Below, in pieces: positions 6,536-37,446 of a DNA stretch of 39,328 nucleotides; within the stretch, counting starts at the first letter, position 1; every line of letters begins with the position of its first letter. This stretch comes from Epibacterium sp. Ofav1-8 (lineage in GTDB: Bacteria; Pseudomonadota; Alphaproteobacteria; Rhodobacterales; Rhodobacteraceae): positions 1-39,328 of the forward strand of contig NZ_JAKRFD010000021.1 of assembly GCF_022348185.1 (NCBI RefSeq), read 5' to 3'. A program made the position numbers and the translations under genes. Under the pieces are notes generated by a model. It searched no databases and was not told where the DNA came from. It saw only the letters and a list, made by a program, of their open reading frames with translations.

Positions 6536-6563
6536 GGAATAAACTGTCCCGCAAGCGCGTTTT
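6536..6563 (+). promoter_or_regulatory. ECF-type promoter motif GGAATA-N16-CGTTTT upstream of GNAT gene
   Basis: GGAATA at 6536-6541 is followed after exactly 16 bp by CGTTTT at 6558-6563. The predicted transcription start, about 6570, is close upstream of the ATG at 6598. This is one of six motifs with identical -35-like element, spacer and CGT core found upstream of genes in this window. Function as a sigma-factor promoter is inferred. Confidence 0.6.
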
Positions 6564-6597
6564 CCGTCCAAACTGACATAGAACGAGAGAACGCCAC

Positions 6598-7203
6598 ATG
6601 AACGATTTCGAGCATATCGTAATCCAGCCCGATCAGACCAAAATCAGACCTGCGATCTTGCAGGATGCCCGTGTGATCGCGAGTTTTTTCTTGATCGCAT
6701 CAGATGGGATGGCTGCATACATCTGGGACAAAAGCAGGTCAGATCAGACTCCTTTGTTAGATATTGGAACAGCGCGCTACAGCCGTAGAAACACGCCATT
6801 TTCATTTGAGAATTGTGATTTACTGGAGCAGGACGGTGAGGCTATTGGAATGCTTCATTGCTTCGAGATGGAAGCAGACGGTGGCGTTGATGATGATCCA
6901 GTTCTGCAACCATATTCGCAGCTTGAAGATGCAGGCTCGCTTTATGTAGCGGGTCTGGCCATTTCGGAGTCGTTTCGCCGACGTGGCTTGGGGTACAAGC
7001 TGATGCTGCAAGCCGAAGAGAAAGCCCGGCAAATGGGCCTGTCACGGGTATCTCTTCTTTGTTTTGATCAGAATAGCGCAGCCATGTCGCTGTATCACAA
7101 GCTTGGCTATGTTGAACAAGGACGTGCCGCGGTTGTACCCACACCACAACTGAAATATCAGGACGGTGATGCCGTTCTGCTGGTCAAGGGCGTGGGGGAT
7201 TGA
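6598..7203 (+). CDS. GNAT-family N-acetyltransferase
   Basis: The 201-residue protein carries the GNAT acetyl-CoA-binding motif as SFRRRGLGYKLMLQAEEKAR, preceded by the beta4 strand SLYVAGLAISES and followed by LLCFDQNSAAMSLYHKLGYVEQGR, the usual C-terminal half. Residues 1-90 are less conserved and presumably hold substrate specificity. It acts in the cytosol, transferring acetyl from acetyl-CoA to an unknown amine. It begins 35 bp after an ECF-type promoter motif shared with the secretion locus, so it may be co-regulated with those genes. It is the first of two acetyltransferase genes; the second starts 234 bp later. Confidence 0.88.
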   Translation: MNDFEHIVIQPDQTKIRPAILQDARVIASFFLIASDGMAAYIWDKSRSDQTPLLDIGTARYSRRNTPFSFENCDLLEQDGEAIGMLHCFEMEADGGVDDDPVLQPYSQLEDAGSLYVAGLAISESFRRRGLGYKLMLQAEEKARQMGLSRVSLLCFDQNSAAMSLYHKLGYVEQGRAAVVPTPQLKYQDGDAVLLVKGVGD

Positions 7204-7437
7204 ACGCTGCATAGTTCAGAAACCCGAAAAAATATGCGCGGTTCGAAATGATGAACTGCGCGCAAATCCGTCGACCGGTATATGAAACCATAGTTGGCGG
7301 TCGCTCGACCTTCCAGCCAGTTTGGGTATGATTTTCGCGATTTCTCGGGCAAAAGGTTGTCATGCACGACTGTGGTAATGCATCTTTGTCGAGCGATGGA
7401 GGAGAACAAGCCCAAGCAAAAATTCGGAGAAGTCTAG

Positions 7438-8007
7438 ATGGCCCTGACGGAACTGGAAAAAATGCAGGCCGGGGAATGGTATACCTGTCTGGATGCAGAG
7501 CTGGAGCAGCATCGGATGGTGGCCCGGCGGGCGGTTCATGAACATGGGCTTCTGAATCCTGACAGGCGCGGGTCGGTTGGCCCAGGTCTGGCTGCGCTTT
7601 TTTCCTGTCTTGGGGAAGATACATACATCGAAGCGCCCTTCCATTGCGCCTATGGGTTCAACATAGAAATAGGCGCTTGCGTATACATCAACGCCGGTTG
7701 CACCATCCTTGACAGCGGCAGCGTCAGAATTGGCACCGGCACTCTTTTGGGACCCAACGTGCAGATTTACTGTGCCGAGCATCATCACGACGCGAAAAAA
7801 AGGGCCGCTGGATTGGAAATCGCGCGCCCGGTTGACATTGGAAAAGACGTTTGGATCGGCGGCAACGCTGTCATTCTGCCGGGGGTTTCGATAGGTGACG
7901 GAACGATTGTCGGTGCGGGCAGCGTTGTTACCCGCGATGTCGCGCCCAGTGCGACTGTGGTTGGCAATCCGGCAACTGCACCGAGCGGTTCGAAAACGGG
8001 TCAGTGA
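7438..8007 (+). CDS. Hexapeptide-repeat sugar O-acetyltransferase (Maa/LacA/NodL-like)
   Basis: The 189-residue protein is a left-handed beta-helix acetyltransferase of the maltose/galactoside O-acetyltransferase group. The N-terminus (EKMQAGEWYTCLDAEL) matches the Maa/LacA/NodL cap. The family signature appears as APFHCAYGFNIEIGACVYINAGCTILD, with the catalytic His in CAEHHHD. Hexapeptide turns IGKDVWIGGNAVILPGVSIG and GAGSVVTRDV lead to GNPA near the end. GGAG lies 8 bp upstream of the ATG. It probably acetylates a sugar or oligosaccharide; the substrate is unknown. The 234-bp gap before it holds no clear gene or promoter motif, so transcription from the GNAT gene is possible. Confidence 0.9.
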   Translation: MALTELEKMQAGEWYTCLDAELEQHRMVARRAVHEHGLLNPDRRGSVGPGLAALFSCLGEDTYIEAPFHCAYGFNIEIGACVYINAGCTILDSGSVRIGTGTLLGPNVQIYCAEHHHDAKKRAAGLEIARPVDIGKDVWIGGNAVILPGVSIGDGTIVGAGSVVTRDVAPSATVVGNPATAPSGSKTGQ

Positions 8008-8250
8008 ATGGGGTCTCGCCACTTACACCGCGACAATTCAGGGCGGTCATCATGGAAACTGGTTTTGACAGTGTGACGTAGCACCCCCGGCACGAAATCA
8101 ATTGCATCGGAAATGCGCGCGTATGCGCCATGGTGGTCGGGTGGAGGCCCGGCGCAGTGACGAAACTCTGCCTGAACGCTTTTGTTTTGGTCACTTCAAG
8201 GTGCGGGTTGGCGACCCCAAAAGCCCAGGTGAAAAAATCGCTTAACCGAA

Positions 8251-8278
8251 GGAATATCGCCGCGGGCTGGCGCGTACT
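8251..8278 (+). promoter_or_regulatory. ECF-type promoter motif GGAATA-N16-CGTACT upstream of NGxxx-repeat gene
   Basis: GGAATA at 8251-8256 and CGTACT at 8273-8278 are separated by 16 bp, identical in layout to the five other motifs in the window. The predicted start of transcription, about 8285, leaves a leader of roughly 35 nt before the ATG at 8319, which has its own AAAGGA. The rest of the 8008-8318 intergenic region (311 bp) shows no gene I can support. Confidence 0.62.
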
Positions 8279-8318: not shown

Positions 8319-8591
8319 ATGAAAAACATCGCCGCCGCAATCGCCATTGCCCTGTCCGCAAGCTCGGCTGCCGCACTGCCCACCACCAACGGTTTGCAAC
8401 TGAATGGCCTGCATTCCAATGGATTCACTTTGAACGGACTGCGGTTCAACGGTTTTACGCTGAACGGTATTTCGGGGAACGTCATCACCTTCAACGGCAT
8501 GTCCTCCAACGTCATCACAATCAACGGCATCGCACCAGGTCAAAGTGAAACGCTGACAGGCCTGGCTCTGCTGGCCTCCAAAAAGCTGTAA
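8319..8591 (+). CDS. Small secreted protein of NGxxx pentapeptide repeats
   Basis: A 90-residue protein with a clear signal peptide (KNIAAAIAIALSASSAAA, cleavage near AAALP). The mature part consists of ten consecutive five-residue units, in order: NGLQL, NGLHS, NGFTL, NGLRF, NGFTL, NGISG, NVITF, NGMSS, NVITI, NGIAP. The third position is always hydrophobic, as in pentapeptide-repeat right-handed beta-helices (consensus A[ND]LxX), but here Asn-Gly leads each unit. The start at 8319 is set by AAAGGA 6 bp upstream and by the promoter motif at 8251. I do not recognise a named family. The Asn ladder parallels the Asn ladder of the giant protein at 22876. A surface or periplasmic structural role is a guess. 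Confidence 0.75.
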   Translation: MKNIAAAIAIALSASSAAALPTTNGLQLNGLHSNGFTLNGLRFNGFTLNGISGNVITFNGMSSNVITINGIAPGQSETLTGLALLASKKL

Positions 8592-8677
8592 CGACGCCGG
8601 CGCACAGCCCACCCTTGGACCGGTGCCACAAGGTAGGGCACCGGCCAGCAACCGATCTGCTGCAAGGACATCTCATA

Positions 8678-9358
8678 GTGCAATTCTCTTTCCGCAAATG
8701 GCCCGCGCTCGCGATAGTGACCGTTTGGGCGCTGCCTGCGTGTGCGGACGTGGATGAAGTCGACCTGTCCGCCTCACCGCTTATGCGATCCGAAATGCAG
8801 CGCAAGGTTCTGCAATATACGGTCGAATGTGCCCTTCCGAACGGGGACACGGCTTTTGGCGTGCATGACGGAACGCGGTACGAATTTGCCGGCGCCATTG
8901 GGATTGCCCCGGAATGGCGCGAAGGCCCGCTGCCGAAACCAAAGCAGCTGGATCTTACCGCCTGCCTTCTGGCCCGGACCAATGCGTTTGGCGTGTCGGT
9001 CGCCATATCACTGCGGAGCGAAAGCGGCGGCTTGGCCGCACTGCCGATGTTTGCCGCCAGTCAAGAGGAACATGAGGATTTCCCGCTTTGGGAAGGCGCT
9101 TTTTTCGGCAATATCTTTGACCCCAACCCGGTGGCCTATGCCTGTACCGGGGCTGGCGGTAAAGATGCCGCGCTGCGCGCACTGAAACGTATCTGCACCT
9201 TGCCAACTGCCCAGACCACTACAGATGGCGCGCAAGTGTCGGCCTGTGGCTTTGTGGTTCTGGGAACTTGCGAGGATGTTGCAACCACACCCATCGGACG
9301 CGTCTTTGCCGATCATATGGTGCATGTCTACTTGCCGGATCGAGCGGTTTCACCCTGA
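8678..9358 (+). CDS. Putative periplasmic protein, unknown function
   Basis: A 226-residue protein if the GTG at 8678 is used; this start is preceded by AAGGA and gives a good signal peptide (KWPALAIVTVWALPACADV), whereas the upstream ATG at 8615 would put a polar extension ahead of it. The mature domain has several cysteines (ECALP, TACLLA, YACTG, KRICTLP, SACGFVVLGTCED), consistent with disulfides in the periplasm. It lies 86 bp downstream of the NGxxx-repeat gene and probably shares its transcript. I do not recognise the family. Confidence 0.7.
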   Translation: MQFSFRKWPALAIVTVWALPACADVDEVDLSASPLMRSEMQRKVLQYTVECALPNGDTAFGVHDGTRYEFAGAIGIAPEWREGPLPKPKQLDLTACLLARTNAFGVSVAISLRSESGGLAALPMFAASQEEHEDFPLWEGAFFGNIFDPNPVAYACTGAGGKDAALRALKRICTLPTAQTTTDGAQVSACGFVVLGTCEDVATTPIGRVFADHMVHVYLPDRAVSP

Positions 9359-13309: not shown

Positions 13310-14114
13310 TCAGGTGTCGATGGCAAGAAGCTGTTGTTTCGTAGTTGCCAACACTTCCGAGAGTGGCACAGTGCTTTCTGGACCGACGAAGACGAAACGC
13401 GCTCCCGAAGCTGACCATGATACCGTATCATAACTGCCCACCTTCCGAATGTTTGCCGCAGCATCGGTCGGGCTTGTGTCTACCGGAGCAATGCAAAGTG
13501 CGACAACGGAACCCGCGCGATCAGTATTCAACAGTTGCGCCACCGGGAGCCCATTGGCCGCCAGAAGCCTTGCGCCACGGAACTCAAGACCATGCGCCGT
13601 TAGGTCGGGGGTGGCAAAGGTCACGCCAGTGGTCTTTCCTAGCCAGCTTTCAATATGATCCTTTTCGCTTGCGGCCACCTCCACAAGGTGGCGGCTCTGG
13701 GTTTCGTAAACATCGTGGGAACCGACCACCTGCATCACCCAGGCTGAGGCGGCCAAGCGCGCGGTGTGCGCTCCATAGTGAAAGCTACCCGCCAGCCCAA
13801 AACACAAGACCGCACAGGCTGCGGCAATTACCGACAAACGCCAACCATGCGGCGGCCGGTCGCTGTTGGCGGCGGGTAGCTCCATGGTGCGGCCCATACA
13901 ATCGCTCTGATGGGAGGGCGCGTAGATTGTCGTCGAAGGCGCTTCGAGCCTTCATATTCGCGCTTTTTAGCATTTCGAACGTTCTCTGAAAATTGTTGTC
14001 CTCGGCTAGGCGCGCCTCGGCCTCCTGCCGACCGCATGGGGACAATTCGCCGTCTAGATAGGCGTTTAGCAAATCCTCTATGTTCCGGTCGGCCCCACCT
14101 TCGGCATCCGTCAT
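13310..14114 (-). pseudogene. Anti-sigma-factor-like membrane protein, frameshifted paralogue of 37513-38283
   Basis: Two minus-strand frames join near 13895. The first (from ATG 14114, AGGAAG upstream) gives the cytosolic N-terminus: IEDLLNAYLDGELSPCGRQE, then EARLAEDNNFQRTFEML. The second gives one transmembrane helix (LSVIAAACAVLCFGLAG) and a periplasmic domain with RHLVEVAASEKDHIESWLGK, TPDLTAHGLEFRGARLL and GLPVAQLLNTD. This order and the sequences match the intact paralogue at the other end of the secretion locus. The layout is that of a membrane anti-sigma factor, but the zinc-binding His/Cys motif is absent. A 1-nt indel breaks the reading frame here. The ECF-type promoter motif at 14153-14182 precedes it. 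Confidence 0.78.
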
Positions 14115-14152: not shown

Positions 14153-14182
14153 TATAAACGCCCGTTGCCGTCAGATTATTCC
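14153..14182 (-). promoter_or_regulatory. ECF-type promoter motif GGAATA-N16-CGTTTATA (minus strand)
   Basis: On the minus strand GGAATA (14182-14177) is followed after 16 bp by CGTTTATA (14160-14153). It lies about 40 bp upstream of the anti-sigma-like start codon at 14114 and has the same layout as five other motifs in the window. The intact paralogue at 37513 carries the same kind of site, so conservation across the pair supports function. Confidence 0.65.
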
Positions 14183-15677: not shown

Positions 15678-15707
15678 GGAATAATTCTGCAGGATCGAGC
15701 GTTATGC
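15678..15707 (+). promoter_or_regulatory. ECF-type promoter motif GGAATA-N16-CGTTATGC of the secretion operon
   Basis: GGAATA at 15678-15683, 16 bp, then CGTTATGC at 15700-15707. The upstream in-frame ATG at 15707 falls at the end of this motif and so would not be in the transcript; this supports the ATG at 15752 as the true start of the acyltransferase gene. Layout is identical to the five other sites. Confidence 0.65.
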
Positions 15708-22779: not shown

Positions 22780-22807
22780 GGAATAACGCCGCACTTTGGA
22801 ACGTTCC
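22780..22807 (+). promoter_or_regulatory. ECF-type promoter motif GGAATA-N16-CGTTCC of the giant repeat-protein gene
   Basis: GGAATA at 22780-22785, 16 bp, CGTTCC at 22802-22807. The expected transcript start near 22814 gives a leader of about 60 nt before the ATG at 22876. The motif begins 21 bp after the right end of IS66, so the insertion left it intact. It has the same layout as the hlyC operon motif, which would keep the giant gene and its exporter co-regulated despite the insertion. Confidence 0.62.
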
Positions 22808-25800: not shown

Positions 25801-28800
25801 AAATCCCAAGCCAGCGATGGCGAGGACATCATGGTGGGCGGCGGCCAGCTGAACGTGATGATCGGTGGCGGCAACAATGACGTCATGGTTGGCGGTGGCC
25901 AATTGAATGTGATGGTCGGCGATGCGCTGCTGGGCGGCGATTACGACGGCAACGACATCATGGTGGGCGGCGGCCAGCTGAACATCATGGCCGGCGGCGG
26001 GCGCGAAGATCTGGTCATCGGCGGTGGTCAGATGAATATCATCCTAGGCGACGGGCTGGCTTCAGCCGTGCAAGACATGATCGGAAGCCTCGACAACTTT
26101 CTCGGCACTGCCGGGTTCGAGGCTCTGTTCGGGTCACAATTGTCGGGCATGCTGGGCGAAATGCAGGCAGTGGTCGAAGAAAAGAAAAACGACATCGATG
26201 CAGCGATCGCAGGGGTCAAGGCGCAATCGGATGCTTTGCAGGTTTACGTCAACAACGCCATCGACAGCGTGACCGGCGACATTCAGGCCGAGATTGATAA
26301 GGCCCAGGCGGCTGTCAATTACCAGCTTGACGCACTGAACCCGGCACCAGAGGGGACTACAAACCCTGCTGAAGATGCGGAAGGCCTGATCGAAGACGCA
26401 AATGGCGCGGTTGACGGTGTCCAGGAAGACATCGACCGGGTGGCCGAAGACGTCAAGAACCGCGTTAACGAGACGATCGAGCGCACAGAAGAAAAGATCA
26501 CCGAAGCCATGCTCGCCGCGCTGGATTCCGGTGGCCAGTTCCTGGCCGACCTGCTGGGCGGAACGCAATTTGACGGCGACGATTATCTTGTGGGCGGCGG
26601 CCAGCACAACATCATGATCGGCGGCGGCGGCGACGATGTGATGATCGGCGGCGGCCAGAACAATTTCATGCTGGGTGGTGCCGGCCATGATGCGATGATC
26701 GGCGGCGGTGAAAATAATATGATGTCCGGGGACGCCGGGAACGACTACATGCTGGGCGGTGGCCGCAACAACCGGATGTTCGGCGGTGCGGGTCTGGACT
26801 TCATGATCGGCGGCGGTCAGCAGAACTTCATGGACGCAGGCTCGGGTTCCGACGTCGTGATCGGCGGCGGCGTGGACAACACGATTAACGCCGGATCGGG
26901 CAACGATATAGTGATCGGCGGCGGTCAGAATGTCATCCTGGACGCGGGCGAAGGCGACGACGTGTTGCTGGGCGGTGGGCAGAACACCACCGTTACCGGC
27001 GGCGCGGGCGATGATCTGCTGCTGGTCGGCGGGCAGAACAACATGCTCGATGCCGGGGAGGGTGATGACATTGCCGTTGTGGGCGGTGCCGACAATGCGC
27101 TGGTAGGCGGTGCCGGTGCGGACCTGCTGATCGCGGGGGGGCAGTCGGTCGTGGTTGATGGCGGCGCGGATGACGACGTGGTGATCGCGGCAGGGCAGAA
27201 TGCCTTTGCTTCCGGCGGCACGGGCGACGATCTGGTGATCGGCGCGGGCCAGAATGTCGTGCTGGACGGAGGAGCAGGTGCTGACCTGCTGTTTGCAGCA
27301 GGCGCATCCACCACCGTCCTAGGTCGTGCCGGCGACGATATCGCAATCGCGGCCGGTGCAGGTGGTGTGTTGGACGGCGGTGCGGGCAACGACGCCTTCA
27401 TCGTCGCGGGAACCGAATACCAGGTCTCAGGTGGCACAGGCGACGACCTTGTCGTGGCGACCGGCACAAAAAACCAGCTTCTGGGCGGTGCAGGCAATGA
27501 CTTCATGGTGGGCATCGGCAGCGATAACAGCTTCCTTGGTGGTGCGAACGACGACACGATCCTGACCATGGACGATGCCGCCATCGCTTCCGGCGGGGAT
27601 GGCGCGGACACCGTGCGCGGCTTTGGCTGGGGCATCATCGGCACTGTGCTGAGCGGTGAGCTGACGGCGAAGTTCGAGCCGGTCATCGACGTGGTGCAGG
27701 ACAAGATTAGCGTTGTCTTTGACAGCATTGACGACACGATCAGCATGGTGACCAGCAAGCTGACAGATGCGCTCGACACCCTGATGGCGCGCATCAGCGC
27801 CTTCGATTTCTCACGGCTTAATCCGCTCAACTATGACCCTGAAACCGGTTTGACCCCGGTGTCAGAGAAAGTGGCAAACGCGGTGGATGCCGCCGAGGAC
27901 GCCGAACATGCGGCAGGCGATGCAGCGGCAGGTGCGGATAGCGCTCAGGATTCGGCCGATCAAGCTCATGCAGATGCCAACGACAGTAAGGCGTCGGCAG
28001 ATAACCAGAAGACGAGTGCCGACGGTCAGATTGCCGATGCCGAAGACGAAGGCGACGCCGCGCAGGATGGCGAAACCAACGGTTCGTTCTCTGGCGATGC
28101 GGCGGATAAGCAGGCTGATCTGGAAGCGGGCAAAGCAGAACAGGCAGCTGCCGAAGCCGAGGCCCAAGCGGGTCATGGCGGCACGTCCGATGTCGAGGAT
28201 GAGGCTGCCGCGTATGAAAGCGATGCTGCGCAAAAACAGCAGGAGGCTCAGACAGAACTGGACAAAAAAGCCCAGGCCGGTCCTGAAGCCAACGACTTCC
28301 TTGGCGATGTCGCAGCCAAGGCCGGTGGTTTGCTGGATCAACTTTCGTCGATCACCAGCCAGCTCGCCGCGCTCGACGTTGTGGGCAAACTGGAAGAAGG
28401 CATTGGCACTGATCTTCCGATTGATAACCCGTTCGACATTCCCACCGATCACCTGTCCACGGCGATGGATCTAATCACGCAGGCACGCAGCGCGCTGGAT
28501 CAGCTTTCGAATATCGAGACCATCCTTGGTGACTTGGGGCTCGACGCAATCCGCGACACGCTTCAGGATCTGGCCGGGGATGCCGTCGATCCACTTTACG
28601 GGGCCATCATGTCCGAACTTGGCGATGTCTTTGGCGAAATCCACGACACGCTGACCGGCGACGCAGGCAACGATACGCTGGAAGGTGGGTTCGGCAACGA
28701 CACCCTGATCGGCGGCGCGGGCGACGACCATTACATCTATCAGGTCGGCGACGGCGATGATGTGATCCGCGAAAACGGCTCTGGCAACGACATGATCGAG

Positions 28801-31800
28801 ATCACCACCCAAAACCTGTTTGGTCTGGATCTGGGCAAGGTGGACCTGGACGACCTGACCTTTGAAAAGACCGACGGCAATTTGATCATTCGCCTTGCTT
28901 CCGGCCTTGGCGGTTCCATTACCATTGAGGACATGGAAGGTGCCGGAAAGGTCGAAACCCTCCGCCTCCGCGATGGCGATGACTTCACCGATTACACGCT
29001 CGACGAGCTTTATGCGCAGGCAACCGACCTCGATTTCGAAGCCTGGCAGGACCAGTATGTCGCCTTCCTTGAGGTGATTGCAGAACAGGACGCGGGCGAC
29101 GTTGCGCTCATGTCTTCGGAACAGCATGTCACGTTCCTAAGCCAGGTCGAGGCGCTGGTGAACGGCACTCAGGAGGTCTATTTTGCGCAGCTCGATCTGG
29201 TGGACGAGCATGGGCCGCTACTGGCTTCGGCCGATACCGGGGGTGACGGGCAAACCGCATCCGACGCAACCGATCCGGACTTTCACGACAATGCCCCGTC
29301 GTCTTCGACCACGGCCGAACGGGACACCTTCGCGTCGCTCAAGGAGGAATTGCTCGCCGTTCTTGCGGACGAATCCATTCTTGCGCAGGCGCAAAGCAAG
29401 GATGGCAGTGACATCGTTGCAGTGGACAAGAAGAAGATGGACGCGCTTCTGAAGGAGCTGCATGCTATCACCGGGCAGCCGGTCGATGAAATCGGCGAAA
29501 TCCTGTTCAACGGCCCCATCGGCGCGGATGCAATCAAGAAGGCCCTTTCGGAAGGCGCAAGCGATCTGAGCGGAGAGGTCAGCGCGGAATTCGGTGAGGA
29601 CAGCGGCTTGGCCGTGGACCTGATGTCACAGGCGTTGGTTTCCGCGCTGGGTGGCATGATTTCCAAGCATCACGAAGCGGTTGTCGATGCCGCGACGAAA
29701 CCCGGTTCGGACGCTGTGAAACTGTTTGAAGAGGCGGCTCTTGCAGAGGCACAGGCGCTCTTTGATTTGTCGCACGATGAGTTCGTTGCACTGTTGAAAA
29801 CATCCGGAGCGATCATCAACGGTGATCTGTCTTCGGTGGAAGGTGTTGCAAAAACCGGTGCGGCACTTTCCGAAGGTTTTGCCGCCTTCGATCCCGGCGG
29901 CGCGTTCGGCAAGCTGCAGTTGCAGGATTGGTTCAAGCGCGGTGAAATTGTCAACAAAGCGTTCACCGACATTGCGGCGCTTGACGACAAATATAGCGAT
30001 CTGGGAATCGCCGGTATGTCGTCCCTGCAAAGCATAGAAACTTACAACCAGTTGGCCGACCTAGCCAATGGTCTGAAATCAGTTGGCGCAGGTGGCAAGG
30101 GCGCGAAGAAAGCGCCGATCCCGGAACATATCCTGTCCAACAGTGACACGGTAGCCAAGATCGCCGATCTGAAAGACGGTATCGATGTTGTGGTGCTTTA
30201 CGGGGACCACGCCGCTGACGCGGGTAACGCGTTCCTGGGGTATCTGACGAACCCCAGTGACCTCGTGGCCAAGGATTTCGATCCTTCTGATCTGCCCGAA
30301 CTGGCCGGTTCGGTCGCCGCAGCCGTCAAGGGCGGCAAGGGCAACGCGGCCCTCATTGCGCTTGAGGTCGTGGATCAGTACGTCGATGCTGCAAAGTATT
30401 CGGTGATGACGCGCGCCGAAGCGGAGGCAAAGGGCTTGATGAAATTCGCGGTATCCGAACAGGAAGTCGCGCGGGTCATGAGCTTCCACACGCCGCTGTC
30501 CTTGTCGCCTGCGCATATGCTCAAGGCGCTTGGTGAAATGTTCGAAGGAACGCTGTCGCTGGAGAGTCTGCCACCCGAACTGGCGTCGAAGATATTTGCG
30601 ATGGATGCCAATGCCAACGCGTTGTCCGAAGCCTTGGCGCAGGCGGACGAAAGCCTGATCATGCTGGAACGGTCGGTCGAGAACGGCCCGATCAACGGCG
30701 GCATCGAGGCTCTTCAGGGCTTGCCGGCCGATGCCATTATCGGCGGCGATCTGGGCGGCAACATCGTCATTGACGGCGTATCCAAGGTCGCCACCCGGCA
30801 ATTCTTCTTTGTGAAGGCCAAGTACTTGCGCGAAGTCGAAGAGATCATCGAAAACAACTATCTGGGATGGGATATCATCGATCACGATGACGTCGGTGAG
30901 CTGGCTCAGAACGAATTCAAGGACATCATCGGCGACCAGGCTTCGGAATTCGCGGAAAAATTCACGGATAACGCTGTCGGTGTGAACGCTGAGATCGAGA
31001 TTATCTCAGAAAACAACACTTTCTTCTTCATACTCGACGGCGGGCCTGCCGGTCCGCTGGCCGAGGAAGCCTTGGATCAGTTGTTTGACAATCATACCGG
31101 CGATCCGAACCAGATCTATTTTACCGAAGCTGGGGATTTCATTTCGGGGGGACGTCAGTACCGCATGGTGCGGGCGCATGTCCTTGACCCCGCCCTGGCC
31201 GGTCTTGACCTCGACGGCAGTCAGACAATTGCTGATATTCAGCTTTCGATAACACAAGCGCTGACGCAATCCCCGGACGACACCACCGATCAGGTTGCCC
31301 CACAACTCGCCGATTCTGTCACACAGGCCATCGGAAAGTTGCACGAACTGCTGTCTACGCATCTGGCTCATATCGCCCCCGGCGCCCTGCATGAGGCTGA
31401 AGGTCAAGGGCTTGTCGGTGTCGCGTCCAAGGATGTGATCAGCGACATCCTGAACGGTCTGCTTGCCTCTGGTCAGATTGATCAGCAGATGGCGGATGAG
31501 ATCGGGCTCAAGCTGCTGGATCACCAATCAGACGCCTTTGCCAACGCCAATCAGGCGCTGTTGGAGGCCCACGGCACAGGCACAAAAGTGATGGTGATGA
31601 CCGCCGATGCCCACGAGAAACTGGGCCTGACCGACGCGGACACGATCACGCCGCTGCTGGACCCGGAAACCGGTGAACTGGTGTACGTGGTGAAGGCTGC
31701 CAGCATTCATGAACTGGGGCTTTCTGCCGAAGGTATCTTGCCGGACGAAAAGGCCGCAGATGTGCTGGAGGATGCCACGGGGCAGGCGCTTAACGGTCTT

Positions 31801-34800
31801 GCCGGTGATCTGCTGGCGACGCTGGCCGAAGACCTCGATACGCTCAAGCGGATCGTGCTGAACCCCGGCGACAGACCCCTGGCTTTCGTCGAAGTTGAAA
31901 ACGACAACTTCACGGACGCGGCACTGGGCGATTTTGTCGAAATCGACCTTGGCGGCTTCCGCTTTGACGGGCGCAGCTTCCGAGTGATGCAACTGAAAGC
32001 CGACAGCGAACTGGATGCCGATCTATTGTCACCGCTGTTCCTGGATGCCCTGGCGGCGAGCGGCGGCAGCCTGGTGGACGGCCAGGATATGCAAGACCTT
32101 CTGGTCGGGTTGGCACAGACCGCCTACCTGAACGAGGCGCAGGCCCGTCTGATCGCGGCCAAACTGCTGCCCGAGCAGAACCCGTTCATGACCACTCTGG
32201 CGCAGGATCTGAACGACGCAGACGGCGTAGGCAGCCTGGTTGCCATTAAGGCCGCGCATCTGGGCGATCTGTCGCAACTGCCGGATGGGATTGTGCACGC
32301 CATCATCGGTAACCGCGAAGGCATCGCGGAAACCGAAACGATGAAGCGGACCTATCGAGCCGACGTGCCGAAGGGCTTCTTTGACGCCTTTGATACGGAT
32401 CATCCGAATGCGTTGTTCAACCAGCGGTTCGACTACGAATTCGAAGGTACGACCTACCAGGTCTGGATCGACGGAGGTGGCGTGCCGCGTGCTCAGCATG
32501 TATTCGAATGGACCAAACTTGTCGATTTGGATCTCAAAGCCAACGGCTTTGTCCTGATGGACCGCGATACGGCCCTCTCCCTTGGACTGCGGGACAAGAT
32601 CGAATCCGGTCATCTGCTGGATACCCTGCTGAAGGAAAGCCTGTCTTACAGCGCCTATGACGCGGTCGCGGAGAAGGTTTCCTATGCCGCTGACAACATT
32701 GCGCAACTGGCATCGCTCGCCGATTTCGGGGCCGATGGTGTGACGATGCACCTGATCGAACTCGATGGAACGGCAGGTATCCTATCGGACTTTGCCGATG
32801 GCGGGTTTACCGACAACAACATCGCCGATCAGGACCTGCTGACCACCGGCAAGACGCTGGGCGAGTTTATCCTGGGCGATAAACGCTACGGCGTCTGGAT
32901 CGACTTTGACGATGGTGCGCCGCTGCATCCGGCCCTGACCAGCCTCAAGGTCAGCCCCGGTGAACTGAGCGGGCTGCTGGCCGAAGTCCTCGTGCAGGCA
33001 GGCGACACTTCGCCCTTGTCCGATGCAGGGCTTGAACATCTGTTCGGGGTCAGCGAATGGGCCGGTGCGGATGACTATGTCGACGACATGACCGCCATGC
33101 TGGCGCTGGACGATATCGTCGTGGTGCAGGCCGATGTTCTGGGTCTTGAAGGATCGATGGGCGCGAACGCCAGCGCCCTTCAGACGGGCGACGAGGCCAA
33201 CATCCACTTTGCCAGCTACGTGACCCTCGAAGGCGCGCGCGTCTACGTGATCAACAAGGCATCGCTGGATGCCGGCAAGGTCGAGTTCTTTGAAGGCACG
33301 CAGGCTTACCCCGCCGCGCGTTTCCTTCAGGACATGAAGGCGCTGCTGGCGGGCGGTGTGGACCTTGATACCCTTGCGTCGAAGGTGCAAGGGCCAGATC
33401 AGGCCGCGCTTGATGCTTATGATGCAATCAATGCAGCGGGTGAGGACGGTGTGATGATCGTCGCCTCCGCCATGGCCAAGACATTGGATGCTGGCGATGT
33501 TCTGACCACCTTCAGCCTGGACGGTCAGACCTATGCAGTCGTTGACAGTGTCGCCGGAGCGGTCAATCAGACCGTATCCAACGCGGTTCTTGATCAGGCC
33601 GAAGTGGACGCCCTGCTGTCCCAGCTGAACCTACCTGCGCGTTTGAATGATGAAATCGTGACGGCAGAGGAAAAGGCCCCGCTATCCGATCCTTCGGAAA
33701 TGCTGTCCTTCTTCAAGGCCATGCTGGACATGGACGTGGCAGAGGGCGCTGCGTTCAACCTCTCGATGATCTCCGACAAGGTCCTGTTCGAAGCAAACGC
33801 GGGCAGCGACGTGGAGTTCCGTTTCCTCGACACGACTAAACCGTTCTTCAAATACAGTGATCTGCTGGAGTTCGACGGATCACAGGACGCCGGGTTCTTT
33901 GATGATCCGACCTTCCTCAAGCTAGGGTTTGAGGGCATGGCGGAGATGAACGACTACATCACCCGGCAAGGTCACTTTGCGGTGGATGGCAACGGCACCC
34001 AGTTGCACAAACTGTCCATCGGAAACGCAGAATTCGTGGCGATGAGCTTGTTTGCCGACGAAATGGGCGCCGGTGCGACGCTGTTGGACAAGCTTCAGGA
34101 CGGCGAAGTGCTGTCGGCCAAACTGATCGAGATCGCGGTCAAAGACCTGCACGCAGCCGGATCGCTGACCGAGGAGGAAATGTTCACCCTCTTCGCGCGC
34201 CTCAACTTCAAGCAAAGCGCAAGCGCGCAGTCCGCGATTGAAGCGGTGCTGCAAGACGGCAGCGATATCATCCTGATCGACTATGACACACATGCGCAAT
34301 TCGACCTGGGCAATCTGGCTGGGGCGGTCATGCATGGCGTGCTTCAGAACGCCGAAGGTGCGCCTGTGATCGCCATGTCCGCATCCAGCCTGATGAAGGC
34401 CGGTGCAACCGATGTGCTGGTTTCGGTCGCTGACAGTCACGCCACACGCGAAACACTTGAATTCCTGGCGGACAGCTACCTCAGAAACATGATCGGTGCG
34501 AACCCGGTGCAATCGAACAAGCTTCTGGGTGACATCACCGCACCGGATGTGGGCAAGTTCGCGGAAATGTTCGTGGGTCTTGCCAGCATCCTTTCCGGCG
34601 GTCCGCTGGATCATGCCTTTGTTGCGGTCAAGGCCGGCGCGGAAGGCGCGCTTGCCTCGCTTGTCGATGGGGGGCTTGCAGAGAAGGTGGGTGTTGATTC
34701 TTTCGGAACCACGGCTTTCTATTCCGTGTCCTCGGGTTCGATCGACAGCATTCCTTCCTCAGCGTTTGCTTCTGGAGATGTTCTGGGCGCGCTGCTTGGC

Positions 34801-37254
34801 GACCTTGTGATGGGCGGCTTTTTGACAGAGCTTCAGGCGCAAAAAATCGGCGCGCGTTTCCAAGTGTCTCAAAACCCCTTTGGGGCCGATATCGCCAACG
34901 CGCTGGCCAATGCGGCAGACGGGTCCGTTGTGATCCTGCACGGTGTGACAGACGACATCCCCGATGAGGCGCTGCTTGGCGTTATCAGCGGGGATATGGA
35001 GACAATTGGCATTCTCCCGGACGCGGTGTTCCAGATCGTTTCGCGCGACTACGTCGAGGCCAACTGGAATGATCTGCGCGACTACATCGTGTCGCATCCC
35101 ACTGCCGTTCAGGTCCTGGAGGACGCTGGATATCCAGCCAATCAAAACGTGCTGCACGACGTATCCAGCGATGCGGCAGCGATCTTTGCCGATATGTCGC
35201 ACATGGATGTCTTGGGGACCTTCGGTACCTCCCCCATGCCCTATGCCATCGTGAAAACAGAGGCGATGGAAGGCACGCAGGCGGCGCTCAGCAACCTGTC
35301 ACGCGTGGATGTCGTGGTGGGCGGTCAGGCGATCACCATATTGCAAGGCAACCTGGTCGGCGGGATTGATGGTTTTGGCGACATAATCGCACAGAACTTC
35401 GCGGCGTCGGATTTCCTGAACGAACAGCAAATCCGGACGATGCTGAACGGCCTCAATGACAGCCGGATCGACGTCAACATGATCGTGGCACAGGCCTATC
35501 AGCCGGGCGGAGTCTACGATCTGGACCAAAACATTGACCGGATGGTTACCGCTGACAGCCCGCTGATCGCGATTGATCTGGCGGCGTTGCTGGAAAGCCC
35601 GTTAGCCGAAAGCGAAAGCGTTATCAGTGATCTGACGAACGTCAGCACCTCAAGCTGGTCGCGCGGGATTGTATCGCCGCAAAGCCTGCTGGTGGATCGT
35701 GACGCGTTCATCGCGATGTTGGCAGAGGCGAACCAGTCGCTGGGTGCGGATCAACAGATCGGGCTCTATGATCTGCTGGCAAGTACCGAGTTCCTGCAAG
35801 TACCGCCGCAGGTCCACGACATGGTGGCTGACGCCCAGAACGGCGATCTCGTCGAGCTTTTGGAAGGAACGTCGGCGCGTTTCATCGGGGTCTTGCTGGA
35901 AGATCTGCAAATCCCACTGGCCAGCTTGGTTCAGGCCGGCATGGTGCTTGGTGCGATGGACAGGGCCGACGGAGGCCGCATGGTCATCTTGCGCAACGAA
36001 GCGGTGCGGCGCGGCATGGTCGAGAATCCTGCGGGATGGACGGCTGACGGGTACGGCCTCCTGCAAGAGCTCGTCGCTGTGGGTGCCGATCCTGCGCTCA
36101 TCCAGCGAGTGGAAGCGGACCTTGTCCATGCCAAGCAGTTGTTCAACAACCGCGGGGCAAAGGTGATCGACTTCTTCGGCGATCTAGACGCGTTCATTGG
36201 TGAGGCCGGCGAAAGCGACAGCATCGTTTTGATCCGCAAATCCAAGCTCGACGCCTACGGCATCGAGCCCGGTACCGGGGATCAGGTCAGCGACCAATTT
36301 CTTGTCGATCCGGATGACAGCAGCGTGAAGTTCGTGGCCCTGAAAAAGAGCTATGCCGCATCGCTGGGTCTGATCCCGCTAGTGGCGGGTGCCGAAGAGG
36401 CGCAGGAGGTCTTCAACGATCACGGCTTTAACCTGCCGCCGGAGGTGGAGGTCATCCTTCCGCAACCTGTTGGCGACTTGCTCAATCAGTTGACCGCCGA
36501 ATTGGCCGCCAACCCGGAAAACGACCAGTTGATCTTTGCCAAGATCGGCGCGGTGCTTGACGGCGAGGTGACCCCGGGGAGCGGTGTCACGATCTTCGGT
36601 CCTGCTGATGCGGTGGGCTGGCTTGCGCCGGCGGGCAGTGTTCCGGCGGATGCCATGGCCGATGTTCGGGAAGTGGCAAAGCTGGTCGCGCAACTGGACG
36701 GAACACTGGCCGAACTTCAGGAACTTGCGCAACTGGTTCCCACCAGCCAGAACTTCCTGACCGAAGGGTACGGCGCTTTTGCCGCGCGGTATGCCCACGA
36801 AACCGATCAGGAGGTGTATTTCCTCGAAGGCTTCGTGTTCCCTGGCACCGAAGGGATGAGTGACGCAGCCGTGCTGGGCTACCTGCCGGCAACCGACACC
36901 TCCGGATCGGTGACCATTGTGCTATCGAAGTTCTTCGAAGACGGCTGGAACCCACAGATGGGCTACAGCGGCGTGGTTTCGGCAGAACAGCTGGTGGAAC
37001 GTTACGGCAGCCTGCTGCCCGACGGCCTGCTGGATCGGATCAGCACAGAGCATGATGATCTGATCGAAGATAACCAGCCAGCGTTTTCTGGACTGTCGAG
37101 CGACATCGACGATGCCGCAGCACTTCTGGACGCCGAAACCAACCAGGCGCTGGACGCCAGCGGCGCGAGTGGTTTGGCATCCGACGATGCAACAGCAGTC
37201 CTGATCGACGACGGTGTGCCCTCAGATCCAGCCGAAGATCAGTTCGCGGCATAA
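22876..37254 (+). CDS. Giant type I-secreted repeat protein with asymmetric RTX-like beta-roll (4792 aa)
   Basis: One unbroken 14.4-kb frame, start supported by AAAGGAA 7 bp upstream. No Sec signal peptide and, on reading, no cysteine, both usual for type I substrates. Order of parts: residues 1-29 leader helix; ~30-1060 about 54 coils of an 18-residue repeat; ~1061-1230 a helical/coiled-coil insert rich in Asp/Glu/Ala; ~1233-1584 about 19 more coils; ~1596-1925 a second helical, Ala/Asp/Gln-rich region; 1926-1975 classical RTX nonapeptides followed by a haemolysin-type calcium-binding-related domain (to ~2042); then ~2750 residues including divergent tandem modules; acidic C-terminus ending DQFAA. 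The hlyC-hlyB-hlyD genes upstream are the probable acylation and export machinery. I see no protease, lipase or pore-forming motif; role unknown, possibly adhesin, S-layer-like or matrix protein. Confidence 0.92.
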   Translation: MGFLGNIWDDVKSAASAVSDFIESFDPYQHGGSGNDRMKAYNLYVYMNGHGGDDVMHSIAGWADVYGGSGNDYIRAIGGDNDLFGGSGNDVIYGYGGSNYVEGGTGSDYVKVVGGTNKVYGGDGHDDIHAYGLTNYIVGGDGDDRITAYAADNALHGGSGHDRIKAIAFGNYIDAGTGNDTVDALAASNTVYLRSGHDYAQLEGGRNKAYGESGNDTINAYGLTNYIDGGSGDDFITAWAADNALHGGSGDDTIRAFAAGNYIDAGDDDDEVEVKGISNKVYLGKGNDEVDAKGGLNNVYGGSGHDTITADGGSNKIYGESGHDEIDADGGLNYIHAGSGTNKIRARGIKNTVRADGGSDWLKAYAAENDINLGNGNNRAYLLAGKNKFVSGTGNDHIEADGLYNDIHTGSGDDYIKTLGAYNKIRAMGGDNDVYAGGAYNEIDTGVGADKVRAVAFGNDISTSYGDDTVEAIAGGNVIDTSASNNSYYNTQSDRDHVTALGGGNTVRTGFDDDHIEVAGIGNEVEAGTGNDTIRAIGGVNLIDAGNGHNDVLSIAGYADILAGSGNDTITAMALVNDVDAGDGHNRIITGGAVNNVDVGTGNDTVIAAGIYNDVDAGTGNNRAVLAGAVNRYSGGGHRDEVVTAGLVNFVSSSGGNDTVIAAGAYNDIDLRGNAGDIVIAGGLYNNINAHDGNNTIISAGGVNVATAGSGNDVMLGVGGVNKFEAGEGNNTLVGLGRVNYLRARNGDDVMVGAGLVNIILAGSGDNALAAVGGVNVIKAGTGDDVAVAAGLVNTLQLNGGDNIAVAVGGVNVVTTKEGDDIAVSVGGVNYADLGEGDNLSVQLGGVNYVNTGAGDDIAVSAGGLSIQRLGDGDNVAVAVGGVNTTFTGSGEDIIVQGGGINVAFSGAGDDIVVAAGAGNLLDAGAGDDIIVSAGLANVQFGGAGDDVMVGLGQANVMMGDASLDMDDIKAGFVLKSQASDGEDIMVGGGQLNVMIGGGNNDVMVGGGQLNVMVGDALLGGDYDGNDIMVGGGQLNIMAGGGREDLVIGGGQMNIILGDGLASAVQDMIGSLDNFLGTAGFEALFGSQLSGMLGEMQAVVEEKKNDIDAAIAGVKAQSDALQVYVNNAIDSVTGDIQAEIDKAQAAVNYQLDALNPAPEGTTNPAEDAEGLIEDANGAVDGVQEDIDRVAEDVKNRVNETIERTEEKITEAMLAALDSGGQFLADLLGGTQFDGDDYLVGGGQHNIMIGGGGDDVMIGGGQNNFMLGGAGHDAMIGGGENNMMSGDAGNDYMLGGGRNNRMFGGAGLDFMIGGGQQNFMDAGSGSDVVIGGGVDNTINAGSGNDIVIGGGQNVILDAGEGDDVLLGGGQNTTVTGGAGDDLLLVGGQNNMLDAGEGDDIAVVGGADNALVGGAGADLLIAGGQSVVVDGGADDDVVIAAGQNAFASGGTGDDLVIGAGQNVVLDGGAGADLLFAAGASTTVLGRAGDDIAIAAGAGGVLDGGAGNDAFIVAGTEYQVSGGTGDDLVVATGTKNQLLGGAGNDFMVGIGSDNSFLGGANDDTILTMDDAAIASGGDGADTVRGFGWGIIGTVLSGELTAKFEPVIDVVQDKISVVFDSIDDTISMVTSKLTDALDTLMARISAFDFSRLNPLNYDPETGLTPVSEKVANAVDAAEDAEHAAGDAAAGADSAQDSADQAHADANDSKASADNQKTSADGQIADAEDEGDAAQDGETNGSFSGDAADKQADLEAGKAEQAAAEAEAQAGHGGTSDVEDEAAAYESDAAQKQQEAQTELDKKAQAGPEANDFLGDVAAKAGGLLDQLSSITSQLAALDVVGKLEEGIGTDLPIDNPFDIPTDHLSTAMDLITQARSALDQLSNIETILGDLGLDAIRDTLQDLAGDAVDPLYGAIMSELGDVFGEIHDTLTGDAGNDTLEGGFGNDTLIGGAGDDHYIYQVGDGDDVIRENGSGNDMIEITTQNLFGLDLGKVDLDDLTFEKTDGNLIIRLASGLGGSITIEDMEGAGKVETLRLRDGDDFTDYTLDELYAQATDLDFEAWQDQYVAFLEVIAEQDAGDVALMSSEQHVTFLSQVEALVNGTQEVYFAQLDLVDEHGPLLASADTGGDGQTASDATDPDFHDNAPSSSTTAERDTFASLKEELLAVLADESILAQAQSKDGSDIVAVDKKKMDALLKELHAITGQPVDEIGEILFNGPIGADAIKKALSEGASDLSGEVSAEFGEDSGLAVDLMSQALVSALGGMISKHHEAVVDAATKPGSDAVKLFEEAALAEAQALFDLSHDEFVALLKTSGAIINGDLSSVEGVAKTGAALSEGFAAFDPGGAFGKLQLQDWFKRGEIVNKAFTDIAALDDKYSDLGIAGMSSLQSIETYNQLADLANGLKSVGAGGKGAKKAPIPEHILSNSDTVAKIADLKDGIDVVVLYGDHAADAGNAFLGYLTNPSDLVAKDFDPSDLPELAGSVAAAVKGGKGNAALIALEVVDQYVDAAKYSVMTRAEAEAKGLMKFAVSEQEVARVMSFHTPLSLSPAHMLKALGEMFEGTLSLESLPPELASKIFAMDANANALSEALAQADESLIMLERSVENGPINGGIEALQGLPADAIIGGDLGGNIVIDGVSKVATRQFFFVKAKYLREVEEIIENNYLGWDIIDHDDVGELAQNEFKDIIGDQASEFAEKFTDNAVGVNAEIEIISENNTFFFILDGGPAGPLAEEALDQLFDNHTGDPNQIYFTEAGDFISGGRQYRMVRAHVLDPALAGLDLDGSQTIADIQLSITQALTQSPDDTTDQVAPQLADSVTQAIGKLHELLSTHLAHIAPGALHEAEGQGLVGVASKDVISDILNGLLASGQIDQQMADEIGLKLLDHQSDAFANANQALLEAHGTGTKVMVMTADAHEKLGLTDADTITPLLDPETGELVYVVKAASIHELGLSAEGILPDEKAADVLEDATGQALNGLAGDLLATLAEDLDTLKRIVLNPGDRPLAFVEVENDNFTDAALGDFVEIDLGGFRFDGRSFRVMQLKADSELDADLLSPLFLDALAASGGSLVDGQDMQDLLVGLAQTAYLNEAQARLIAAKLLPEQNPFMTTLAQDLNDADGVGSLVAIKAAHLGDLSQLPDGIVHAIIGNREGIAETETMKRTYRADVPKGFFDAFDTDHPNALFNQRFDYEFEGTTYQVWIDGGGVPRAQHVFEWTKLVDLDLKANGFVLMDRDTALSLGLRDKIESGHLLDTLLKESLSYSAYDAVAEKVSYAADNIAQLASLADFGADGVTMHLIELDGTAGILSDFADGGFTDNNIADQDLLTTGKTLGEFILGDKRYGVWIDFDDGAPLHPALTSLKVSPGELSGLLAEVLVQAGDTSPLSDAGLEHLFGVSEWAGADDYVDDMTAMLALDDIVVVQADVLGLEGSMGANASALQTGDEANIHFASYVTLEGARVYVINKASLDAGKVEFFEGTQAYPAARFLQDMKALLAGGVDLDTLASKVQGPDQAALDAYDAINAAGEDGVMIVASAMAKTLDAGDVLTTFSLDGQTYAVVDSVAGAVNQTVSNAVLDQAEVDALLSQLNLPARLNDEIVTAEEKAPLSDPSEMLSFFKAMLDMDVAEGAAFNLSMISDKVLFEANAGSDVEFRFLDTTKPFFKYSDLLEFDGSQDAGFFDDPTFLKLGFEGMAEMNDYITRQGHFAVDGNGTQLHKLSIGNAEFVAMSLFADEMGAGATLLDKLQDGEVLSAKLIEIAVKDLHAAGSLTEEEMFTLFARLNFKQSASAQSAIEAVLQDGSDIILIDYDTHAQFDLGNLAGAVMHGVLQNAEGAPVIAMSASSLMKAGATDVLVSVADSHATRETLEFLADSYLRNMIGANPVQSNKLLGDITAPDVGKFAEMFVGLASILSGGPLDHAFVAVKAGAEGALASLVDGGLAEKVGVDSFGTTAFYSVSSGSIDSIPSSAFASGDVLGALLGDLVMGGFLTELQAQKIGARFQVSQNPFGADIANALANAADGSVVILHGVTDDIPDEALLGVISGDMETIGILPDAVFQIVSRDYVEANWNDLRDYIVSHPTAVQVLEDAGYPANQNVLHDVSSDAAAIFADMSHMDVLGTFGTSPMPYAIVKTEAMEGTQAALSNLSRVDVVVGGQAITILQGNLVGGIDGFGDIIAQNFAASDFLNEQQIRTMLNGLNDSRIDVNMIVAQAYQPGGVYDLDQNIDRMVTADSPLIAIDLAALLESPLAESESVISDLTNVSTSSWSRGIVSPQSLLVDRDAFIAMLAEANQSLGADQQIGLYDLLASTEFLQVPPQVHDMVADAQNGDLVELLEGTSARFIGVLLEDLQIPLASLVQAGMVLGAMDRADGGRMVILRNEAVRRGMVENPAGWTADGYGLLQELVAVGADPALIQRVEADLVHAKQLFNNRGAKVIDFFGDLDAFIGEAGESDSIVLIRKSKLDAYGIEPGTGDQVSDQFLVDPDDSSVKFVALKKSYAASLGLIPLVAGAEEAQEVFNDHGFNLPPEVEVILPQPVGDLLNQLTAELAANPENDQLIFAKIGAVLDGEVTPGSGVTIFGPADAVGWLAPAGSVPADAMADVREVAKLVAQLDGTLAELQELAQLVPTSQNFLTEGYGAFAARYAHETDQEVYFLEGFVFPGTEGMSDAAVLGYLPATDTSGSVTIVLSKFFEDGWNPQMGYSGVVSAEQLVERYGSLLPDGLLDRISTEHDDLIEDNQPAFSGLSSDIDDAAALLDAETNQALDASGASGLASDDATAVLIDDGVPSDPAEDQFAA
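22963..26055 (+). repeat. 18-residue repeat block 1 of the giant protein (about 54 units)
   Basis: The protein reads in register as xUxGGxGxDxUxAxGGxN, U being hydrophobic. Examples are DVYGGSGNDYIRAIGGDN, NVYGGSGHDTITADGGSN and VIKAGTGDDVAVAAGLVN. Eighteen residues is one full RTX beta-roll coil of two nonapeptide turns. The first turn keeps GGxGxD; the second aligns as AxGGxNxUx, with Asn in the Asp position. Spacing is almost invariant over 1000 residues, with a few coils lengthened (near 24310-24370, 25755-25835, 25915-25955). Early coils are polar; later ones drift to MVGGGQLN. At DNA level the units are well diverged, so this is not a recent expansion. Confidence 0.9.
26572..27627 (+). 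repeat. 18-residue repeat block 2 of the giant protein (about 19 units)
   Basis: After a helical insert the same coil returns with a GGGQN flavour: DVMIGGGQNNFMLGGAGH, DIVIGGGQNVILDAGEGD, DLVIGAGQNVVLDGGAGA. GGxGxD turns again alternate with GGGQN turns. Some coils are 17 or 19 residues. Residues after ~1584 leave the pattern. The Asn/Gln-Asn face continues the ladder of block 1. Confidence 0.88.
28651..28995 (+). repeat. Classical RTX nonapeptides and haemolysin-type Ca-binding-related domain
   Basis: Residues 1926-1975 contain back-to-back GGxGxDxUx nonapeptides (LTGDAGNDTLEGGFGNDTL, then IGGAGDDHY, DGDDVIREN). They are followed by LTFEKTDGNLIIRLASG, then SITIEDMEG and LRLRDGDDFTDYT, the pattern of the PF06594-type domain that usually ends RTX proteins. 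In canonical RTX exports this lies close to the C-terminal secretion signal; here it is in the middle of the chain, with 2750 residues after it. Confidence 0.85.
31138..35370 (+). repeat. Divergent tandem modules in the C-terminal half of the giant protein
   Basis: At least seven diverged modules of roughly 170-300 residues can be recognised by three recurring landmarks. (1) A beta-hairpin: FISGGRQYRMVRAHVL (~2756), FRFDGRSFRVMQL (~3028), FILGDKRYGVWI (3331), FSLDGQTYAVVDSV (3546), LSIGNAEFVAMSL (3713), and weaker ones near 3946 and 4146. (2) A helical pair such as LLASGQIDQQMADEIGLKLL, LAQTAYLNEAQARLIAAKLL or LVMGGFLTELQAQKIGARF. (3) A short strand after NPF-type sequence, such as KVMVMTADAHEKLGL, SLVAIKAAHLGDL, DIILIDYDTHAQF. 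Boundaries are approximate. I do not recognise the family. Confidence 0.65.
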
Positions 37255-37289
37255 CGTCGCCATTAGGTTGTCACCTGCGGTATTAACAC

Positions 37290-37320
37290 GGGATGAGCCC
37301 CGTTTCTCAGGGCTCATCCC
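37290..37320 (+). terminator. Strong hairpin after the giant gene
   Basis: GGGATGAGCCC (37290-37300) and GGGCTCATCCC (37310-37320) form a perfect 11-bp stem with a 9-nt loop, 36 bp after the giant gene's stop codon. There is no T-run after it, so it may act as a weak terminator or as an RNA 3'-end stabiliser. It separates the giant gene from the anti-sigma-like gene, which has its own promoter motif. Confidence 0.7.
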
Positions 37321-37416
37321 AATGCAAGTTCGGGGCGCACGTCATCTCCGCTCCCAATACGCTTGGTAGCTCGCATGAAAGGATGCAATCTAAACGCGAT
37401 TTATTTTGGTATTCCG

Positions 37417-37446
37417 GGAATAGAGCTGCAAGCTCGAGCGTATTAA
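37417..37446 (+). promoter_or_regulatory. ECF-type promoter motif GGAATA-N16-CGTATTAA of the anti-sigma-like gene
   Basis: GGAATA at 37417-37422, 16 bp, CGTATTAA at 37439-37446. It matches the minus-strand site at 14153-14182 upstream of the paralogous gene and four other sites. The expected transcript start near 37453 precedes the ATG at 37513 by about 60 nt. Confidence 0.65.

Follow-up and report, generated by a model that had tools for sequence, protein, structure and literature searches.

EcfG (ECF15) uses promoters of the form GGAAC...CGTT, and in the ECF26 group of extracytoplasmic function (ECF) sigma factors it is typical, without being held to be defining, for the sigma gene to lie beside that of its anti-sigma. 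In the available excerpts of work on Sinorhizobium meliloti, the cross-species ECF26 consensus is a -35 GGAATA with a -10 GT, several tabulated ECF26 target promoters carry GGAATA and then CGT (PMC6180224), RpoE1, RpoE3, RpoE4 and RpoE6 combine this signature with small regulons, and the ECF26 anti-sigmas consist of an N-terminal domain, a transmembrane segment and a periplasmic C-terminal domain (PMC6180224, PMC3511301). The DNA considered here, referred to as the window, is the whole 39,328-nucleotide contig C13 (NZ_JAKRFD010000021.1) of the 37-contig, 4.76-Mb genome of Epibacterium sp. Ofav1-8, or 0.8% of that genome, and it carries six copies of the motif GGAATA-N16-CGT that, judging from sequence comparison, probably serve an ECF26-like sigma factor as promoters; the likeliest candidate for that factor is the product of an orphan ECF gene on another contig, C2. 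The locus resembles the S. meliloti systems in its GGAATA and GT elements, its small putative regulon and the predicted layout of its anti-sigma; it differs from them in that the candidate sigma gene stands apart from two anti-sigma genes and in that its targets would include RTX (repeats-in-toxin) proteins and type I secretion.

The six sites and their promoter class

The motif is present at 6536, 8251, 14182 (minus strand), 15678, 22780 and 37417, with the strands and the 16-bp spacing exactly as a preliminary description of this DNA had given them. As that description also held, each copy lies upstream of a gene start on its own strand, the last base of CGT standing 37, 43, 43, 49, 71 and 71 bp from the ATG; the start codons of hlyC (15752), the NG-repeat gene (8319) and the intact anti-sigma gene (37513) are our own choices.

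6536..6560, plus strand: putative ECF26-type promoter of the GNAT gene; GGAATA-N16-CGT, A-tract at 6516-6520, 37 bp to the ATG
8251..8275, plus strand: putative ECF26-type promoter of the NG-repeat operon; motif with A-tract at 8232-8237
14158..14182, minus strand: putative ECF26-type promoter of anti-sigma copy 2; motif with A-tract directly upstream, about 14196-14202
15678..15702, plus strand: putative ECF26-type promoter of the hlyC-hlyB-hlyD operon; motif, no A-tract at the usual spacing
22780..22804, plus strand: putative ECF26-type promoter of the giant RTX gene; motif with A-tract at 22762-22765, bordering an IS66 insertion
37417..37441, plus strand: putative ECF26-type promoter of anti-sigma copy 1; motif with an AT-rich stretch upstream, no A-tract, 71-bp gap

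All six sites fit the ECF26 consensus of -35 GGAATA and -10 GT, this being the pattern by which they were defined. The preliminary description had called them ECF-type promoters closely related to those of EcfG, and the first part of that assignment stands, whereas the published match is ECF26 and not EcfG. EcfG promoters share the GGAA-type -35, the CGT-type -10 and the spacing of about 16 bp, but at this genome's own EcfG locus the sequence is GGAAC-N16-CGTT, and every one of the six -35 elements is GGAATA and not the GGAAC that EcfG would call for; because of that EcfG locus, ECF26 is the better fit.

Dinucleotide shuffles give a mean expectation of 0.17 sites for the window, and none of 100 shuffles reaches six. 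Across the genome there are 22 matches, 11 on each strand, against 8 for the reversed pattern, and six of the 22 fall on the window contig (binomial P = 2e-8). The sequence AAAA, here called the A-tract, stands 12-17 bp upstream of GGAATA at four of the six sites, compared with 1.7% of window positions (P = 1e-6) or with 6.4% in the neighbourhood of the sites (P = 2e-4); in these four the tract is 13-15 bp from the motif. A genome-wide search for an A-tract followed by GGAAT returned 12 rows representing 9 distinct places, four of them in the window, with a single match for the control.

Sixteen matches lie outside the window, and by eye 11 of them are inside open reading frames, two are away from gene starts and three precede plausible starts. 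One of these last, the sole GGAATA-N15..17-CGT match on C2 when all of that contig is read, is 54 bp before an RTX gene and has an A-tract. A second, on C7, lies 33 bp before an Ada-like gene (named by eye) and has no A-tract; the third, on C11, has an A-tract and precedes an SDR/PhbB-like gene (named by eye), at 71 bp from the first start codon of the reading frame and about 180 bp from the methionine preferred as the start. The putative regulon, which had been proposed to be local, is mostly but not strictly so, given the further good site on C2. The outside matches also bear on whether all six window sites function: it is conceivable, although unlikely, that the regulon is a partial one in which the anti-sigma, NG-operon and RTX sites are true and one or two others (those of the GNAT gene at 6536 and of hlyC at 15678) are chance or inactive occurrences. 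The 11 matches within reading frames and the missing A-tract at 15678 speak for this, while the expectation of just 0.17 for the window, together with the A-tract and the 37-bp gap of the 6536 site, speaks against it.

The contig is rich in transposases, and a shared repeat or a transcription-factor site spread on mobile elements, as opposed to a sigma promoter, might in principle account for the motif. The sequences flanking the sites, however, have a mean identity of 30% upstream and 28% downstream and are therefore not copies of one repeat; an IS66-like stretch next to one site matches only itself in the genome (40 of 51 candidates scored) and its inferred end precedes the motif; and in relatives the motif again precedes ECF operons. 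On the strength of the unrelated flanks and the self-match of the IS66-like stretch we have discarded a repeat or insertion-sequence origin, which we regard as extremely improbable.

Anti-sigma genes and the candidate sigma factor

Two of the six sites precede anti-sigma-like genes, one intact and one split.

37513..38283, plus strand: anti-sigma copy 1, intact; predicted helical anti-sigma domain, one transmembrane helix (by eye) and a periplasmic RseB-C-like domain
13310..14114, minus strand: anti-sigma-like copy 2; two overlapping frames, 13785-14114 and 13310-13897, kept unjoined

Copy 1 has the layout of ECF26-type anti-sigmas, with a predicted N-terminal anti-sigma domain, transmembrane segment and periplasmic C-terminal domain (VIA-align served as a second look at this layout), and the predicted fold of the periplasmic part matches the C-terminal domain of RseB/MucB. 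The RseA-RseB and MucA-MucB envelope-stress control of RpoE and AlgU differs in that here a single chain includes the RseB-like part, at a sequence identity of 13-15%. The N-terminal part of copy 2 matches zf-HC2 at 0.0014, below the cut-off, and its C-terminal part is 42% identical to copy 1.

Pfam scans of selected reading frames detected no ECF gene in the window, none of the 11 matches of a Sigma70_r2 genome search is on C13, and neither anti-sigma gene has an ECF gene beside it. Of 149 family genomes 31 have a relative of copy 1, and so have two of 18 genus genomes at an E-value limit of 1e-20, the genome's own being included in both counts. A scan of named genomes gave 170 loci with such a relative, of which the best 80 were kept, and in all 80 an ECF gene lies on the same strand no more than 1.1 kb upstream; the window's anti-sigma genes, standing alone, are therefore unusual. 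The best candidate for the sigma factor is an orphan in the complementary sense, the ECF gene at C2:166404-166952 (minus strand), which has no adjacent anti-sigma and which, among the 25 NCBIfam matches listed, exceeds the cut-off solely for the general sigma70-ECF superfamily. In a quick tree with long branches, where S. meliloti RpoE6 (located through its published promoters) is the sole known ECF26 member, the C2 ECF falls with the ECFs adjoining copy 1 relatives in an 83-row clade (support by the Shimodaira-Hasegawa-like approximate likelihood ratio test, SH-aLRT, of 94). There it pairs most closely with an ECF encoded on plasmid P2 of Sulfitobacter mediterraneus (SH-aLRT 99). An 87-row fork (SH-aLRT 86) unites the 83-row clade with the C33 ECF pair (C33 being a further contig of this genome), the ECF of locus L053 and RpoE6, and leaves EcfG outside.

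Plasmid P2 (NZ_CP069006.1, of which the stretch L089 was read) brings together what is dispersed here. Its anti-sigma orthologue is 69% identical and has GGAATA-N16-CGT at L089:19905 with the same 71-bp gap as the 37417 site; its ECF, about 4 kb from that gene, is 72% identical to the C2 ECF; and the gene order of C2 is repeated, the ECF being preceded by a homocysteine methyltransferase gene (84%) and a divergent winged-helix gene (84%). After the ECF comes an NG-repeat operon whose proteins are 51%, 61% and 64% identical to those at 8319, 8678 and 9401 in the window, and this operon is preceded at L089:26047 by AAAATCTTC...GGAATT-N16-CGT, A-tract included. Since ECF, anti-sigma and NG operon lie side by side on P2, the parts distributed over C2 and C13 in the present genome are linked there. 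The likeness ends with the secretion genes: all of P2 was searched and holds no hlyC or hlyD relative, and no relative of the giant RTX protein is among its matches of at least 100 bits. P2 does encode a 1498-residue Calx-beta protein.

The expectation that the responsible ECF gene would itself be preceded by the motif was not borne out in this genome, as there is none before the C2 ECF or the methyltransferase gene upstream of it. More broadly, GGAATA-N15..17-CGT is found before the ECF neither here nor on P2; upstream of the P2 ECF there are weaker look-alikes, one of them GGAAAA-N15-CGT. Upstream of the homocysteine methyltransferase gene both genomes do share ACTCAGGAAATTCTCAG, at about 16600-16700 of L076 (the stretch at the end of C2) and about 23515-23540 of L089, adjoining the divergent winged-helix regulator.

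A different sigma factor might of course serve the same promoters, be it the C33 ECF (which has its own anti-sigma), EcfG or an ECF encoded in an unassembled gap, and the fragmentation of the assembly into 37 contigs leaves room for the last of these. In the tree RpoE6 joins only further out than the fork that includes the C33 ECF; the anti-sigma of the C33 ECF is distantly related to that of the window, at 30% identity; and upstream of this ECF there is a GGAATA, though without CGT at N16. Both the C2 ECF and the C33 ECF could be ECF26-like, and cross-activation among ECF26 members of S. meliloti is described in the available excerpts of PMC6180224 and PMC10880074. Set against this, the C33 ECF shares 36% identity with its C2 counterpart and is outside the 83-row clade, and ten loci judged by eye to be of C33 type have no GGAATA-N16-CGT in the 260 bp read before the chosen ECF start, for which reason this candidate was placed lower but kept. 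EcfG was dropped as first choice in view of the GGAAC-N16-CGTT at its own locus and its position outside the 87-row fork. Taken together we hold a sigma factor other than the C2 ECF to be rather improbable. The preferred reading, then, is that one ECF sigma probably controls all six units, as the preliminary description proposed and as motif, position and relatives recommend, with the qualification that its likely gene is on C2 and is without the motif.

Conservation in relatives

Of the 46 relative loci that fall outside the Rhizobiaceae clade, 17 carry GGAATA-N15..17-CGT in the 700 bp preceding the ECF, with both strands considered and with exactly N16 in 16 of them, while each of six control stretches has it in 0-2 of the 46 (loci with less than 100 bp in a stretch were skipped yet kept in the denominator). 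These loci are related to one another and the occurrences are therefore not independent events. The A-tract accompanies the motif at six of 16 aligned relatives' sites, compared with eight of ten in the set formed by the window, C2, Sulfitobacter and the same genus. One same-genus genome carries the motif 40 bp ahead of a gene that by eye is cytochrome b561-like, at a distance of about 6 kb from the ECF/anti-sigma pair of that genome; the available excerpts of PMC6180224 list a cytochrome b-like protein among the targets of S. meliloti RpoE1 and RpoE3, and the two systems are alike in this cytochrome-b type of target.

Two loci are worth describing in their own right. In another family genome (L079:12552-20000) an ECF/anti-sigma pair with the motif is separated by about 1.2 kb from an oppositely oriented giant gene, which encodes more than 2400 residues with an LEPRIVFDAA stretch near the start. 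In Rhodobacteraceae IMCC 34051 (L181) the interval 666-713 bp before the anti-sigma gene contains two GGAATA-N16-CGT sites, one on each strand, an arrangement that suggests a divergent promoter pair before the ECF.

Several observations weigh against a single C2-encoded sigma acting at all six sites. The motif is missing before the ECF in 29 of the 46 loci outside the Rhizobiaceae clade and in all 34 loci within it (three stretches further upstream in that clade hold it in 1, 3 and 1 loci); in 29 other loci of the family scan, mostly more distant, GGAAT-N16..18-CGT precedes the ECF in two, and neither of two Phaeobacter plasmid loci has the motif. Close anti-sigma relatives occur in just one of 17 other same-genus genomes. 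Within the window, the sites at 15678 and 37417 are without an A-tract at the usual spacing, and support is weakest for the GNAT and hlyC sites. C2 and C13 are separate contigs whose linkage is deduced from synteny. The C33 ECF, outside the 83-row clade, is yet nearer to the C2 clade than RpoE6 is, and this proximity, along with a similar recognition helix (by eye), makes cross-talk or a different sigma possible. Finally, distant hlyC relatives in 25 other family genomes have the motif in none of the 25 loci, each of about 2.1-3.4 kb, and this, with the missing hlyC and hlyD on P2, makes the RTX part look recent or strain-specific; the connection with RTX might be confined to the strain at hand, and comparison lends it no support in other genomes.

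The comparative support consequently differs from unit to unit. It is good for the 37417 anti-sigma gene and reasonable for the NG-repeat operon (in Sulfitobacter with the GGAATT variant), while the GNAT, hlyC-hlyB-hlyD and giant RTX units are putatively assigned by the motif and its position, to which an A-tract is added in two of these three cases.

Target genes and a possible circuit

The target list of the preliminary description is right overall, with two amendments: the anti-sigma gene at the third site is divided between two reading frames, and an apparent three-gene unit follows the 8251 site. Besides the anti-sigma genes, the units are composed as follows.

6598..7203, plus strand: GNAT acetyltransferase; PF00583 at 1.8e-16
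8319..8591, plus strand: small protein with NGxxx tandem repeats; signal-peptide-like N-terminus by eye
8678..9358, plus strand: rare conserved protein; 61% identical to Sulfitobacter P2 (L089) over 193 residues
9401..10129, plus strand: membrane methyltransferase (MddA/NnrU-like); NF045656 at 236.6 bits (below the cut-off of 270), PF07298 at 25.5 bits (above cut-off)
15752..16282, plus strand: HlyC-type acyltransferase; PF02794 at 4.4e-33 on the reading frame 15626-16282
16306..18480, plus strand: HlyB-type ABC exporter; PF00664 and PF00005, TIGR01846 at 634.7 bits (below the cut-off of 725.55)
18452..20212, plus strand: HlyD-type adaptor; PF13437, TIGR01843 above cut-off
22876..37254, plus strand: giant RTX protein of 4792 residues; PF00353 in 7 stretches, 2.2e-30

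The type I secretion/RTX set comprises an HlyB-type exporter (its model below the curated cut-off), an HlyD-type adaptor and an RTX nonapeptide substrate. This gives the putative regulon its significance: if the assignment is right, a sigma group described chiefly in connection with sulfite and stress responses would be tied to RTX and type I secretion, and a concrete promoter code together with a candidate sigma factor would be the result. The available main text of a 2026 review of RTX toxin regulation has no ECF or sigma-factor term (PMC12846084), and among the matches listed from titles and abstract beginnings of the open-licence literature there is no case of an ECF with RTX, type I secretion or adhesins.

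How such a circuit might operate can be outlined. At rest, the cytoplasmic N-terminal domain of the window's membrane anti-sigmas would hold the sigma factor. A signal from the envelope or related to secretion would then act on the RseB-C-like periplasmic domain and free the sigma factor, and RNA polymerase loaded with it would start the hlyC-hlyB-hlyD operon, the giant RTX gene and the second RTX gene on C2, as well as the small NG-repeat operon, the GNAT enzyme and the anti-sigma genes themselves. The sequence shows the motif with its clustering and placement, its occurrence ahead of ECF/anti-sigma operons in some of the relatives, and the orthology of the C2 ECF and the window's anti-sigma to genes that are linked on Sulfitobacter P2; sigma binding, cognate pairing, signal release and feedback are what we infer. 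With the promoter before two anti-sigma genes and none observed ahead of the sigma gene, a negative, self-limiting loop is to be expected. We tentatively entertain, with rather less than even confidence, a split ECF26-like circuit in which the sigma factor drives its inhibitors and not itself, and in which two anti-sigmas that combine an RseA-like domain with an RseB-like periplasmic sensor depend on the same promoters as an acyltransferase-equipped type I exporter with its RTX cargo, yielding a self-limiting pulse that ties RTX secretion to stress of the envelope or of export. If true, the separation of sigma from anti-sigma, with the promoter on the anti-sigma alone, would constitute a natural rewiring of feedback.

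Some features of the individual genes deserve mention. The NG-repeat protein has no NCBIfam match and is 51% identical to L089:26114-26383 of its Sulfitobacter counterpart (L089:26114-26389). The rare protein has no Pfam match (reading frame 8615-9358) and no NCBIfam match (8678-9358). It is one of 17 such proteins, itself included, in a database of 5.8 billion; among 345 family genomes it was found in its own alone, and by alignment search in two of 390 order genomes, the second copy having an internal stop. In the 20 kb around that second copy there is no match to any other query protein, and the sole GGAAT-N16..18-CGT is about 4 kb away. The P2 relative of the rare protein, with conserved Cys and Trp, adjoins the NG-repeat protein and the membrane methyltransferase. 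The HlyD-type adaptor (18452..20212) has an N-terminal cyclic-nucleotide-binding domain (PF00027, 7.3e-17). Between hlyD and the RTX gene lies the IS66-like element (20365-22758), whose ends are imperfect and whose 8-bp flanks, ACGAAAAC and GCGAAAAC, agree in seven of eight bases (by eye); it is inserted at the A-tract of the RTX promoter, which it leaves intact. The window's methyltransferase is 64% identical to its Sulfitobacter P2 (L089) counterpart, and at the end of C2 (L076:19450-19896) there is a truncated second MddA-like methyltransferase gene, 54% identical to the window copy over 138 residues.

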